Shown one piece after another: positions 2,909 through 6,637 of a stretch of 7,365 nucleotides of DNA. The stretch is from contig JAHIRR010000231.1 of assembly GCA_018818505.1 (NCBI GenBank), forward strand, positions 1 to 7,365. Reading direction: 5' to 3'. The translations under genes and the position numbers were made by a program. The notes below the pieces were generated by a model, which was not told the DNA's origin, did not search any database, and worked only from the letters and a program-made list of their open reading frames with translations. Position 1 is the first letter of the stretch; every line of letters begins with the position of its first letter. Source of the stretch: Candidatus Omnitrophota bacterium (GTDB taxonomy: Bacteria > Omnitrophota > Koll11 > Gorgyraeales > Gorgyraeaceae).

Positions 2909-3880
2909 ATGAAGAAAGCATTAATCACAGGCATTACCGGTCAAGATGGCGCGTATTTATCAAGGCTGCTGCTGGAAAAAGGCTACGAGGTCCATGGCAT
3001 TGTAAGGCGGGTTGCGCTGGAAGACCCTGAACACCGGCTCTGGCGCATAAAGGATGTGTTGGGGAAATTAAAGCTTCATTCCGGTTCCCTTGAGAGCTAT
3101 GCCAGCTTATTTGACGTGGTAGAAAAAGTAAAGCCTGATGAATGTTATCATTTGGGCGCGCAGAGTTTTGTTAGTTATTCTTTTGAAGATGAATTTTCAA
3201 CGATCAATACAAATATCAACGGGACCCATTACATTTTATCGTCGATAAAGAATAAGGCGCCTAAATGCAGGTTCTACTTCGCGGCTAGTAGTGAACAATT
3301 TGGCCATGTCAGGGAGGTGCCGCAGAAAGAGACCACGCCATTTTATCCGCGTTCGCCATATGGCATCTCGAAAGTAGCTGGTTTTGATCTGACCCGTAAT
3401 TATCGCGAGGCATATGGCCTCTTTGCGTGCAATGGCATACTTTTCAACCACGAATCCCCCCTGCGCGGCTATGAATTTGTAACGCGTAAGATATCAAGAG
3501 GCGCTGCCATGATAAAAAAGGGTATTGCTAAAGAATTACGTCTTGGCAACCTGGATGCTAAGAGGGATTGGGGTTTTGCGGCAGACTTCACTGAAGCGAT
3601 GTATTTAATGCTCCAGCAGGATAAACCTGACGACTATGTGATAGCTACAGGCGAGACACATACGGTAAAGGAATTCGCAGAGCTTGCCTTTAAACATGCA
3701 GGCCTTGACTGGAAAGAGTATGTAAAGGTAGATGAGTTATTATTTCGTCCTGCCGAGGTCCATGAGCTCAGAGGCGACTGCGCTAAAGCCAAAAAAGTAT
3801 TAAACTGGAAACCAAAGGTCGGTTTTGAAGAATTGGTCAAGATGATGGTGGACGAGGATTTAAAAAGGATCAAGGTATGA
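2909..3880 (+). CDS. gmd: GDP-mannose 4,6-dehydratase
   Basis: The 323-aa protein is a complete, rather short member of the Gmd family. It has the nucleotide-binding GITGQDG at residues 8-14, [12 protein letters not shown] (81-92), NINGTHYIL (102-110), AASSEQFG (125-132) with S128/E129, and the catalytic Y151/K155 in YGISK. The family-specific [16 protein letters not shown] block (180-195) and [16 protein letters not shown] (212-227) follow. PLRG replaces the PRRG of E. coli Gmd, a variant I believe some Gmd subfamilies share. The enzyme turns GDP-mannose into GDP-4-keto-6-deoxymannose, the branch point to GDP-fucose, GDP-rhamnose and GDP-perosamine. No reductase (Fcl/Rmd) or aminotransferase for the next step is in the window. 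A strong SD precedes ATG 2909, and the stop overlaps the following ATG (ATGA, 3877-3880). Confidence 0.92.
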
Positions 3881-4806
3881 CAAAGACAACATTGATCACA
3901 GGTGGCGCGGGGTTTTTAGGTTCGCATTTGTGCGAGCGCTTCCTGAAAGAGGGCTATAAAGTCATTTGCATGGATAATCTTATAACAGGCGCTCTTTCTA
4001 ACATTTCCCATCTTGAAAAAAATCCTGACTTTAAATTCATAAAACATGATGTATCTAAATACATAGATATAGAAGATAAAATAAACCTGGTCCTGCATTT
4101 CGCTTCTCCCGCAAGCCCTATTGATTACCTGAATTATCCTATACAGACTCTCAAGGTCGGTTCATTGGGCACGCATAACGCGCTGGGCGTGGCAAAGGAG
4201 AAAAAGGCGGGGTTTTTGCTGGCGTCTACTTCTGAAGTTTACGGAGATCCAAAGATCCACCCTCAGCCAGAGACTTATTATGGCCATGTGAACTGCATCG
4301 GGCCGCGCGGCGTCTACGACGAGGCCAAGCGTTTTGCAGAGGCTATTACAATGGCTTATCATAAGACGCACGGTCTTGATACTCATATAGTAAGGATATT
4401 CAATACGTATGGAAAAAATATGAGAAGGAACGATGGCAGGGCAATCCCTAATTTTATAAGCCAGGCACTAAAGAATGAGCCGATAACCGTGTATGGCAAG
4501 GGTTCTCAGACCAGGAGTTTTTGTTTTGTATCCGATCTTATTGAGGGTATTTATTTATTGAGCCAATCTGATATCCATGGCCCTGTAAATATAGGCAATC
4601 CTGTAGAATTAAGCATCATAGGCCTTGCCAAAGAAATAATAAAACTCACAGGAAGTCAAAGCAAGATCATCCATAAAGATCTTCCAGAAGATGACCCAAA
4701 GGTCAGACAGCCAGATATAACCAGAGCGGCAAAACTTCTTAAGTGGAAACCAAGAGTAAAGCTGGAAGAGGGATTAAGGGAGACAATAAGGTGGTTTAAA
4801 CAATAA
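3877..4806 (+). CDS. uxs: UDP-glucuronate decarboxylase (UDP-xylose synthase)
   Basis: The 309-aa protein is full length for a bacterial UXS. It carries GGAGFLG at residues 9-15, MDNLITG (32-38), [23 protein letters not shown] (74-96), [10 protein letters not shown] (116-125) with S119/E120, the family-specific [11 protein letters not shown] (142-152) with catalytic Y147/K151, RIFNTYG (173-179), and [12 protein letters not shown] (211-222). The HFASPAS and [11 protein letters not shown] blocks separate it from GalE and RfbB. It converts UDP-glucuronate to UDP-xylose and CO2 in the cytoplasm through an NAD+-bound 4-keto intermediate. The start overlaps the gmd stop, with AAGGA 7 nt upstream, so gmd and uxs are probably co-translated. 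Its substrate UDP-GlcA must come from a UDP-glucose dehydrogenase. The dehydrogenase at 316-1620 looks like a HexNAc enzyme, so that source is uncertain. Confidence 0.9.
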
Positions 4807-4818
4807 ATCTAAACTAAG

Positions 4819-4973
4819 ACGAAATAACCAAGATACAAGAAACAATAACCAAACAATGACCAATTACCAAATTCCAAAAACCAAACAAGGTGATCAGCGG
4901 ACATGGTTTGGTTATTGGTTATTGAATATTGAAAATTGTTTGGTGATTGTAACTTGGTTATTGGTTATTTCAT
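4819..4973. repeat. Inverted repeat A, copy 2 (68-nt arms, 19-nt loop), overlapping a gene start
   Basis: The left arm is 4819-4886, the loop 4887-4905 and the right arm 4906-4973. Arm lengths equal those of copy 1 (1641-1789); the loop is 6 nt longer, so reading frame across the element is preserved between copies. The outermost ends pair (acgaaataacca against tggttatttcat, one mismatch). The element begins 12 nt after the uxs stop. It contains the ATG of the wzi-like gene at 4856, and codes for residues 1-39 of that protein. No SD-like sequence precedes this ATG. Confidence 0.9.
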
Positions 4974-6505
4974 TAGTTGCTTTACTCTTCCCTGGTATTT
5001 CAGAGTCTTCTCCGTCAGTGGATGTGCCTCTCAGGCACTGGAGCTACGACGCTATAGAGAAATTGGCCATATTGGACCTTGCTGATATCGCGGATATTGG
5101 TTTCAGGCCTGTCTCCCGCATAAAAATGGCGCATATGATAAAAATCGCCATTGAAAAGTCAGCTGACTATGAGCAAAGTTTTGAATGGGCAGAGCAGGAG
5201 TATTTAGAGGTACTTTTATATAATCTGATAGATGAGTTCAGGGAAGAATTAGTTACGATAGGGGTCGATGTTGCCGCGGTCAGTGATGATGGGCCCAGGA
5301 AATATATCTTAAAGGCGCCAGAACTGAATGTTGAAAAGATCTACGCGAATATCGATTCAGAACAGCGGCTCTTTGAAAATAAAGAAGGCTGGAAACTGAA
5401 AGACGGCTTTAATCTTCGAGCCAGGTTAAATACATGGGCAAAGGCCGCGGATCTCTTTGCGATCTCTTTAACCCCTGGCCTCAGGTACGCTCCCGATGAG
5501 ATAGACGCGGATTTAGAAAAAGGCCATATAAGAGTTGCCCACCCCAGTTTTAATATGGAACTTTCAATGGGCCGCAGTTCAATGTGGTGGGGGCCGGGCT
5601 TTGATGGCGCATTGCTTTTAACAGATAATGCCTTTCCTTTGGATATGGTAAAGTGGAACAATATATATCCTTTCAGGCTGCCATTTATTTTAAGAAAGAT
5701 CGGCAGGTTTAACGCGCAATTTTTTGTCTCCAGGCTTGAGGATAAAAGGACTGTGCCTGGGGCGTTTGTGACAGGCTGGCGCCTGGATTATACCCCGTGG
5801 AATTTTCTGAAATTCGGATTTGGGCATATTCTGATGCACGGCGGCAAGGGTGTAAAAAAACTTGGTTTTGCTAATTTCTGGAGTTCCGCGTCGCTGGTAT
5901 TCAGCGCGGCAGGCGGCGGAACCGAGATAGAGAATCATATAATCTCAGGGGATGTCCAATTATTTATCCGGCGCATAGATAGATTTTTGCCGATCGCGAC
6001 AGGCGCAAAATTATATACAGAATGGGGCGCGGAAGACGAGGCAGGGAATATTCCGATAAATCTAGCCTCCATCACAGGGATTTATTTTACGGATGTATTT
6101 AAAATCTCAGGGTTTGATGGTAAGATAGAGTTTGCCAAACTTGACGATATCTTTTACGACCATTTTAGATATGCCTCGGGTTATACGCGGCGGGGAAGTA
6201 TAATAGGCCATCACATAGGAGGCGATTCAGAGGAGATGGCGGCAACAGCTATATTTAATCTTCCCCGGGAATACAGCATGAGCACCACCTTCAGTCATCA
6301 GCGCCGGGGCCTCCAAAAGGCCAGTGTTGAGACCGTAAATGAGTTAAGAATAGAATTTAGTGTAATAGATGCCTTGAAGATGTATAATATATGCGGCATT
6401 GAAGTCGATGCATTCTACGAATTCGAAGACATAGATAATTACGATAATACTTCAAACGCGGCAAAAAATCATATTATAGGCGTGGAGGCAAGGAGAAAGT
6501 TTTAA
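4856..6505 (+). CDS. Wzi-family outer-membrane capsule assembly protein
   Basis: The 549-aa protein appears complete. Residues 28-46 form a hydrophobic stretch (CLVIVTWLLVISLVALLFP) preceded by K8, K10 and R15, read as a signal peptide with an unusually long n-region. Residues 58-100 (HWSYDAIEKL...RPVSRIKMA) look like an SLH-type helical module. The family signature is GRSSMWWGPG (239-248) with GALLLTDNAFP (251-261), followed by strand-rich sequence. The protein ends in Phe, as many outer-membrane beta-barrels do. Wzi proteins attach or organise capsule at the outer membrane, which fits the export gene downstream. The first 39 residues are encoded by inverted repeat A2 and no SD precedes ATG 4856. 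The next in-frame ATG (about 5126) would delete both signal and SLH-like parts, so a start inside the repeat is likely; GTG/TTG codons within it are alternatives. Confidence 0.82.
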   Translation: MTNYQIPKTKQGDQRTWFGYWLLNIENCLVIVTWLLVISLVALLFPGISESSPSVDVPLRHWSYDAIEKLAILDLADIADIGFRPVSRIKMAHMIKIAIEKSADYEQSFEWAEQEYLEVLLYNLIDEFREELVTIGVDVAAVSDDGPRKYILKAPELNVEKIYANIDSEQRLFENKEGWKLKDGFNLRARLNTWAKAADLFAISLTPGLRYAPDEIDADLEKGHIRVAHPSFNMELSMGRSSMWWGPGFDGALLLTDNAFPLDMVKWNNIYPFRLPFILRKIGRFNAQFFVSRLEDKRTVPGAFVTGWRLDYTPWNFLKFGFGHILMHGGKGVKKLGFANFWSSASLVFSAAGGGTEIENHIISGDVQLFIRRIDRFLPIATGAKLYTEWGAEDEAGNIPINLASITGIYFTDVFKISGFDGKIEFAKLDDIFYDHFRYASGYTRRGSIIGHHIGGDSEEMAATAIFNLPREYSMSTTFSHQRRGLQKASVETVNELRIEFSVIDALKMYNICGIEVDAFYEFEDIDNYDNTSNAAKNHIIGVEARRKF

Positions 6506-6510
6506 TGAAT

Positions 6511-6637
6511 CGCGGAATCTACGCTGAAGCTCAACTTTATCTGGCAAGGCTGGACCTCGGCTTTTTTAAAAGCCGAGGTCCAGCCTTGCCAGATAAAGTT
6601 GAGACGCGGAACTAACGCGGAACTAACGCGGAAGACC
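6511..6637 (+). repeat. 11-bp direct repeat array (cgcggaactaa type) split by a palindrome
   Basis: Units on the left are cgcggaatcta (6511-6521) and cgctgaagctc (6522-6532). Units on the right are cgcggaactaa (6605-6615), an identical copy (6616-6626) and cgcggaagacc (6627-6637). All run in the same direction. The 74-bp palindrome at 6530-6603 sits between the two groups. The array starts 5 nt after the wzi-like stop and ends 36 nt before the next start. Confidence 0.75.
6530..6603. repeat. Perfect 74-bp palindrome (36-nt arms, 2-nt centre)
   Basis: Arms 6530-6565 and 6568-6603 are perfectly complementary around a central TT. The first non-pairing flanking bases are g6529 and a6604. In RNA it would give a very stable hairpin. 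No T-run follows, so it does not look like a simple intrinsic terminator on the plus strand. Immediately outside the arms are acgctgaag (6521-6529) and acgcggaac (6604-6612), 7 of 9 identical, which is target-duplication-like but also explained by the 11-bp array. Confidence 0.95.

Follow-up and report, generated by a model that had tools for sequence, protein, structure and literature searches.

The window, the whole 7,365-nt stretch of DNA analysed here, comes from an uncultured Omnitrophota bacterium and holds a polysaccharide gene cluster. Its features are as follows, with G009 denoting a colinear relative:

316-1620: UDP-sugar dehydrogenase gene
1632-1790, + strand: repeat A1, intergenic, in the UDP-sugar dehydrogenase/epimerase gap; absent from G009
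1821-2753 and 2909-3880: first and second epimerase/dehydratase genes
2757-2894, + strand: palindrome B, at a junction, intergenic, unrelated to repeat A; absent from G009
3877-4806, + strand: third (NAD-dependent) epimerase/dehydratase gene, with the probable ancestral wzi start within its 3' end
4791-4799, + strand: putative decayed ancestral wzi start, GTG GTT TAA, inside the epimerase gene and out of frame with present wzi (from comparison with G009, G002, G003, and G007)
4810-4974, + strand: repeat A2, a palindrome located after the epimerase stop and ahead of the old wzi signal peptide, encoding Wzi residues 1-39
4821-4891, + strand: left arm of A2, A-rich, containing ATG 4856 and encoding a polar stretch with Lys
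4901-4971, + strand: right arm of A2, T-rich, hydrophobic, encoding most of residues 17-39
4856-6505, + strand: wzi (PF14052), 549 aa, with a repeat-built leader (from the ORF list and Pfam profile)
4973-5014, + strand: putative ancestral signal-peptide remnant, residues about 40-53, VALLFPGISESSP, resembling FALLLPCISEASP of homolog P0049
6530-6603, + strand: third type of junction palindrome, 3' of wzi, with perfect 36-nt arms and a 2-nt gap; absent from G009
from 6674: further ORF

All four gaps separating non-overlapping genes of the window contain a palindrome (A1, B, A2, and the one at 6530-6603), and none was found at the overlapping pair (2909-3880/3877-4806). Fold z-scores, computed against 200 dinucleotide shuffles, are -6.6 for A1, -7.8 for B, -7.0 for A2, and -14.7 for the 6530-6603 palindrome; since no shuffle (0 of 200 in each case) folded as well as A1 or A2, those two folds are not due to chance. 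The words that make up palindrome B resemble GTTTCGTAAG/GTTGCGTAA and differ from those of repeat A; at the corresponding junction G009 has another short palindrome, TAGGCCAGGTTTAAACCTGGCCTA. The 6530-6603 inverted repeat (fold -68.6 kcal/mol) could be a terminator or a junction element.

The alignment of A1 with A2 spans 159 columns and contains 25 mismatches; compared as direct copies, the two share 88% identity over 77 nt and 86% over 69 nt. The 71-nt arms of A2, 9 nt apart, are 75% complementary. The earlier note had described A1 and A2 as related copies of a dispersed palindrome, with loops differing by 6 nt and with A2 encoding Wzi residues 1-39, and the alignment, folds, and ORF all agree with this. 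Its readings of A1 (ATA at 1678, TGA at 1732) are also correct, but the proposal built on them, that two single-base differences (ATG and TGG in A2) mark the capture of the repeat by the gene, does not hold: 25 aligned bases differ, and ATG at the codon homologous to 4856 is present in five copies, A2 among them, of the 29 sampled (A1 and A2 included in the sample), so no special mutation is needed. Nor is A2 alone in combining this ATG with an open frame, as a second copy among the 29 (L039) does so as well, with the frame open to the end of the element; the L039 open frame is just 56 aa long, so no gene uses that start. What remains of the proposed capture of a non-coding repeat is that a mostly intergenic repeat now encodes the N-terminus of an exported protein, without the special two-base change as its cause. 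By eye, copies of repeat A (1632-1790, 4810-4974, and L039-L068) also seem to show a roughly 7-base phrasing (CCAATAA, CCAAGAT, ACAAGAA, and so on), with stems containing regular internal loops.

The entire window has a colinear counterpart in G009, with 85-90% DNA identity. Gaps between aligned blocks are short in G009 (9, 52, 62, and 7 nt, vs. 197, 160, 214, and 165 nt in the window), and they contain nothing that aligns with the window's four palindromes; the different short palindrome mentioned above is in the second. At the epimerase-wzi junction (62 vs. 214 nt) the net difference is 152 nt. The G009 wzi gene begins with a GTG within the last epimerase codons and has a 22-residue leader reading MVRLASFLIFCSIFLAPSILLANPSVDVP; G002, G003, and G007 have ATG in place of this GTG. 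Since 152 is not divisible by three, and the window has GTG GTT TAA at the old start, wzi there must begin inside the repeat. No clear target-site duplication was seen when the window and G009 junctions were set side by side by eye. The comparison with close relatives suggested in the earlier note therefore yields a wzi gene without the repeat and with a different signal peptide.

We infer that the direction of change was insertion in the window rather than loss in G009, a polarity that depends on one close relative. The reverse, in which the repeat was ancestral at this junction and was lost by G009, making the capture old rather than recent, seems decidedly improbable. A compacting lineage could explain the joint absence of all four palindromes from this single close relative, but six others (G002, G003, G004, G006, G007, and G013) have still other junction sequences, in which the leaders keep the overlapping start or have their own, and arm complementarity is still 75% and 71% in the two A copies.

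Insertion of A2 at the epimerase-wzi junction, replacing the wzi start and part of its signal peptide, is thus the reading we consider probable. A copy of about 150 nt, from a family of palindromic repeats scattered through Omnitrophota, would have entered this junction, which would have been signal-peptide coding sequence, because the ancestral wzi start lay within the end of the epimerase gene. The insertion would have shifted the frame, cutting wzi off from its old start, and the inserted copy would by chance have carried an ATG and an open frame. Its left arm would then have come to encode a polar n-region containing Lys/Arg; its right arm would have contributed the beginning of a hydrophobic core that continues into what is left of the old signal.

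Two other explanations of the arrangement were set aside. A fusion of epimerase and Wzi by frameshifting might be suspected from a TTTAAAC at 4795-4801, before the epimerase stop, but a ribosome in the epimerase frame would not meet it in the phase needed for a -1 slip. Homolog P0001 (91% identity) has a short start, MANPSVDVP, that might suggest a missing leader; G009 reads TTG GCA AAT there, inside a longer leader, and the P0001 start looks like a start-calling choice.

The Wzi ORF matches PF14052 over residues 169-537 (E=1e-58, 199.7 bits, cut-off 30.1), and ATG 4856 is the earliest ATG, GTG, or TTG in its open frame. The leader has the two features expected of a Sec signal peptide, a positive n-region and a hydrophobic core of at least 12 residues: net charge is only +1 ahead of the best hydrophobic 12-mer (mean Kyte-Doolittle 2.9). 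This 12-mer, however, is formed by residues 34-45 and straddles the end of the repeat near residue 39, so that the repeat provides the n-region and only part of the core, rather than most of it as the earlier note had it. Sec cleavage sites have small residues at -3 and -1; these would be Ser and Ser if Wzi were cut after GISES, a site set by analogy with homologs ending in Ala. As the end of the core and the cleavage region look ancestral (VALLFPGISESSP, like FALLLPCISEASP of P0049), the leader would be a chimera.

The proposed start is not a strong one. No Shine-Dalgarno-like sequence was found by eye at ATG 4856, while the other five gene starts of the window have one, and two of the three bases of this ATG are paired in the predicted hairpin; initiation here may therefore be weak. 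In-frame alternatives are TTG at 4922, 4940, and 4961 and GTG at 4943. A start at 4940 or 4943, in the right arm, would give a short leader, MVIVTWLLVISLVALLFPGISES, without the left arm. Its length fits the 22-residue leaders common in homologs and its core is equally hydrophobic, but it has no positive charge before the core, a weak start codon, and no recognisable ribosome site; translation from here appears unlikely, and would in any case still mean a leader and start codon derived from the repeat. ATG 4856 is the inferred translation start of wzi, with the repeat-built leader presumably exporting the protein.

A less benign reading is that the repeat damaged wzi, leaving an ORF open by chance with its translation lost or its product signal-less, a pseudogene on the way. 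The lack of a Shine-Dalgarno-like sequence and the hairpin of about -51 kcal/mol over the ATG are compatible with this, as is the occurrence of ATG plus open frame in 2 of 29 copies, which means that openness can arise without selection. So are the 33 amino-acid differences from G009, placed slightly more often on the window lineage (13) than on that of G009 (7), with 13 assigned to neither. On the other hand, the 549-codon ORF is intact, and dN/dS between mature Wzi and its G009 counterpart is 0.069, compared with 0.060, 0.049, and 0.060 for three neighbour genes. Among 166 columns at least 95% conserved, one departs in the window and one in G009. These values show that mature Wzi has been constrained over the window-G009 split as a whole, not necessarily since the insertion, and a recent event would not show in them. 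We regard damage to the gene as quite unlikely. It may be added that dS for wzi (5012-6502) vs. G009 is 0.45, about half the 0.82-1.02 of its neighbours; recombination or local constraint could explain this.

Repeat A had matches at E<=1e-6 in 53 of the 384 genomes sampled from the phylum, a count of genomes rather than copies in a scan that mostly scored two candidates per genome. When more candidates were scored, at E<=1e-9, all of 36 genomes chosen among those with matches had between 1 and 26 (both strands counted). Repeat A is rare among close relatives, detected at E<=0.001 in only 3 of the 19 genomes in the family of G001. Like bacterial MITEs, it has inverted-repeat arms, a length of 100-200 bp, and multiple copies. 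In G014, copies lie upstream of ORFs that on reading resemble ssb and clpC.

In the 29 copies, left arms are 53% A and right arms 51% T; a hydrophobic 12-mer (mean Kyte-Doolittle of at least 1.6) is encoded in 130 of 174 frames of the right arms (the 29 copies on both strands), compared with 21 of 174 for shuffled elements and none of 174 for the left arms. Because of this arm polarity, a polar and then a hydrophobic stretch results for any downstream frame, in either orientation. Most long ORFs touching repeat A are not captures. Among 20 loci chosen because their open frames were among the longest, 18 had an ORF of at least 100 aa touching the match; on reading, the repeat supplies the leader in just one of these, in G092, and the others have a likely ATG after the repeat or contact it at the C-terminus.

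At the epimerase-wzi junction itself, eight loci could be compared (the window, G002, G003, G004, G006, G007, G009, and G013). Repeat sequence is read into the wzi leader in six of them, as a hairpin in four and as shared repeat words in two. G002, G003, and G007 have an GCGGAGCGNAGCTCCGC hairpin after the overlapping ATG (z -3.3, -4.2, and -2.4), a word that occurs a second time in L007. In G006 and G013 the start and n-region, MSLRAK(R/Q)S, come from one half of a repeat of the GTCATTGCGAGCGAAGCGAAGCAATC type, which is degenerate in G006; the likeness was seen in shared words and not by folding: the G006 hairpin (z -3.8) is upstream of this ATG, and the G013 leader segment folds no better than its shuffles (z -0.1). 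In G004 an CCCCGTAGG...CCTACGGGG hairpin (z -6.6) ends at a likely TTG start, beside the leader rather than within it. The G009 junction has no palindrome (z -0.9). There is no obvious Shine-Dalgarno sequence at the overlapping starts of these relatives, so these genes may rely on the one upstream for initiation.

More distant wzi loci are mixed. G014 has a complete GTCATTGCGAG...CTCGCAATGAC palindrome at the junction (z -7.5), and 15 of 19 genomes have matches to its family; this palindrome may itself be untranslated, as it has an ATG at its end that could be the start. No palindrome was seen, by eye only, at L008, L009/L038, L034, L035, or L036. The N-termini of two metagenomic homologs, P0022 and P0005, match scattered sites in 16 and 23 of the 384 genomes, respectively, many with internal stops; although these homologs are known from protein alone, their N-termini appear to behave as expected for repeats. 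Palindromes of the same kind also precede genes for cytosolic epimerases (e.g., at three junctions each in G004, G006, and G007). In G004, G006, G007, and G013 the third epimerase has an ATG, giving MKT..LITGG, directly 3' of the palindrome; with its own ATG so placed, this conserved protein needs nothing from the palindrome.

The G092 ORF mentioned above encodes a Memo/AMMECR1 fusion (PF01875 and PF01871), with repeat A upstream, read in the frame that wzi uses in the window (...MRMLKKDLFGYWILAIGYCLVIVSWSLVIPIVVFA). On the reverse strand of this locus (L074, about 1900-2070), a single repeat A copy accounts for the last codons of a radical-SAM ORF as well as for the leader of the overlapping Memo/AMMECR1 ORF. 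Homolog P0075 is 91% identical to the G092 protein over 92% of the query and has an unrelated leader, while the repeat-A leader persists in diverged form in P0076 (81%) and P0079 (65%). At the G149 Memo locus the T-rich arm can be recognised in the DNA, with the palindrome fold lost (z +0.8) and another short palindrome within the left-arm region; this looks like a captured leader retained while its palindrome decays.

Elsewhere in the Memo family, strong hairpins over the leader were found in G237 (z -9.5), G185 (z -7.3), and G133 (z -5.1); the G237 palindrome has 35 matches in its own genome, both orientations counted. In 90 Memo loci (not a random sample, but the best 90 of matches listed in 244 of 305 genomes), z is below -3 in 10 leader regions and in one mature control region, with 19 vs. 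6 at a cut-off of -2 and 5 vs. 0 at -4. The G092 leader itself scores only -2.1 because the 140-nt window used cuts its palindrome. As far as folding shows, palindromes in Memo leaders are recurrent but a minority.

Candidates come from other gene families too. The G333 secretin gene (PF00263) has an ATG overlapping the upstream stop (ATGA) and a leader, MSIRPKNIKTEKQKNLFIILFFGFLVFWFFGLSIA, lying over an A-rich/T-rich palindrome; P0195, identical to this secretin, has the same start. Two ORFs with no Pfam match, in G057 (prepilin-like from a GVTLIEML motif recognised by eye) and in G022, are weaker leads for palindrome leaders. From protein sequence only, a (G)GLNLPY/CLNLPY-like leader word is common to Wzi homologs P0043 and P0062 and secretins P0235, P0243, and P0245, perhaps from one palindrome; similarly, the leader of the secretin homolog P0232, MKKSVQLLVVGYWLLVIGYACGEE, resembles repeat A in its hydrophobic frame.

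Leaders vary widely across 74 Wzi homologs, and 80 of the 90 Memo leader regions lack a strong hairpin (z above -3). Both are what would be expected if the window leader were the product of ordinary signal-peptide drift, with AT-rich DNA encoding hydrophobic residues anyway and the likeness to a repeat of no importance. Against this are the 152 nt without a G009 counterpart, the fold z of -7, and the excess of hydrophobic frames in right arms over shuffled elements; the DNA identity between A1 and A2 excludes drift in the window, and as an overall account it has very little probability.

A more general suggestion can be made, which we advance tentatively, leaning slightly away from it: that junction palindromes of Omnitrophota are orientation-free leader cassettes, whose repeated capture, replacement, and decay regularly renew signal peptides and prepilin leaders. 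Palindromes of many families would gather at gene junctions, and where genes overlap an insertion would hit the 5' end of the downstream gene, surviving mainly where this end encodes a cleavable leader. The T-rich arm would help: as a palindrome A-rich on its left and T-rich on its right reads alike on both strands, any insertion would put a polar (often Lys-rich) and then a hydrophobic stretch ahead of the gene. Counting against the suggestion are the low share of strongly folding Memo leaders, the distant wzi loci where no palindrome was seen by eye, the poor folds in G007 and G013, and the positions of the G004 and G014 palindromes relative to their likely or possible starts.

Signal peptides change fast and seem easily replaced, yet the origin of new ones is rarely seen. 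Here the repeat-free site in G009 shows the prior state, and across related species a single gene has several unrelated palindromes in its leader. Should the general suggestion be true, it would explain odd N-termini like WLLVIGYWLLVI in predicted proteins, and junction palindromes would be expected to be tolerated in the 5' ends of exported genes but not in those of cytosolic ones. For annotation, it is a caution that repeat-like N-termini may be genuine leaders.

No description of palindrome-built leaders in Omnitrophota was found in literature searches. Repeats read as protein are known from several other systems. In Nematomorpha mitochondria, inverted repeats are read as protein (PMC6649704); these are perfect palindromes inside mitochondrial genes, in contrast to dispersed elements serving as leaders in Omnitrophota. 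The MITE-like elements ERIC/RU-1 and NEMIS/Correia are described as 100-200 bp long, with strong stem-loops and many intergenic copies, sometimes fused to genes in frame (PMC2229807). Repeat A can be likened to them in size, stem-loop, and copies, although neither a target duplication nor a transposase nor a terminal motif was established for it. Rickettsia palindromic elements (Ogata et al. 2000) are described as 105-146 bp long, also intergenic, and translated in frame within protein genes (PMC2229807). Comparing behaviour only, those elements are described as lying inside conserved protein genes, whereas A2 is in a leader, ahead of the mature Wzi sequence, and provides the start.

The closest parallel is in Yersinia, where the YPAL/RU-2 palindromic repeat (about 168 bp) encodes residues 1-30 of the predicted 41-residue signal peptide of the exported protein YPO1552 (Delihas 2007, PMC2759123); its homologs in other genera have unrelated signal sequences, and translated RU-2 is hydrophobic (PMC2759123). 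As in A2 and wzi, a palindromic repeat gives the N-terminal part of a signal peptide, a likeness in behaviour taken from that paper. With RU-2 in YPO1552 (PMC2759123) and the in-frame Rickettsia elements (PMC2229807), the kind of event is therefore already known. YPO1552, however, is a small protein of unknown role without a repeat-free site for comparison, while Wzi is a known conserved family with such a site in G009; unlike in YPO1552, the frame of wzi was changed and its start replaced, and leaders of this one gene contain palindromes of several unrelated families. What the Omnitrophota case adds to the known systems is thus the repeat-free site, the replacement of a start after a frame change, recurrence with unrelated palindromes, and the argument from arm polarity.
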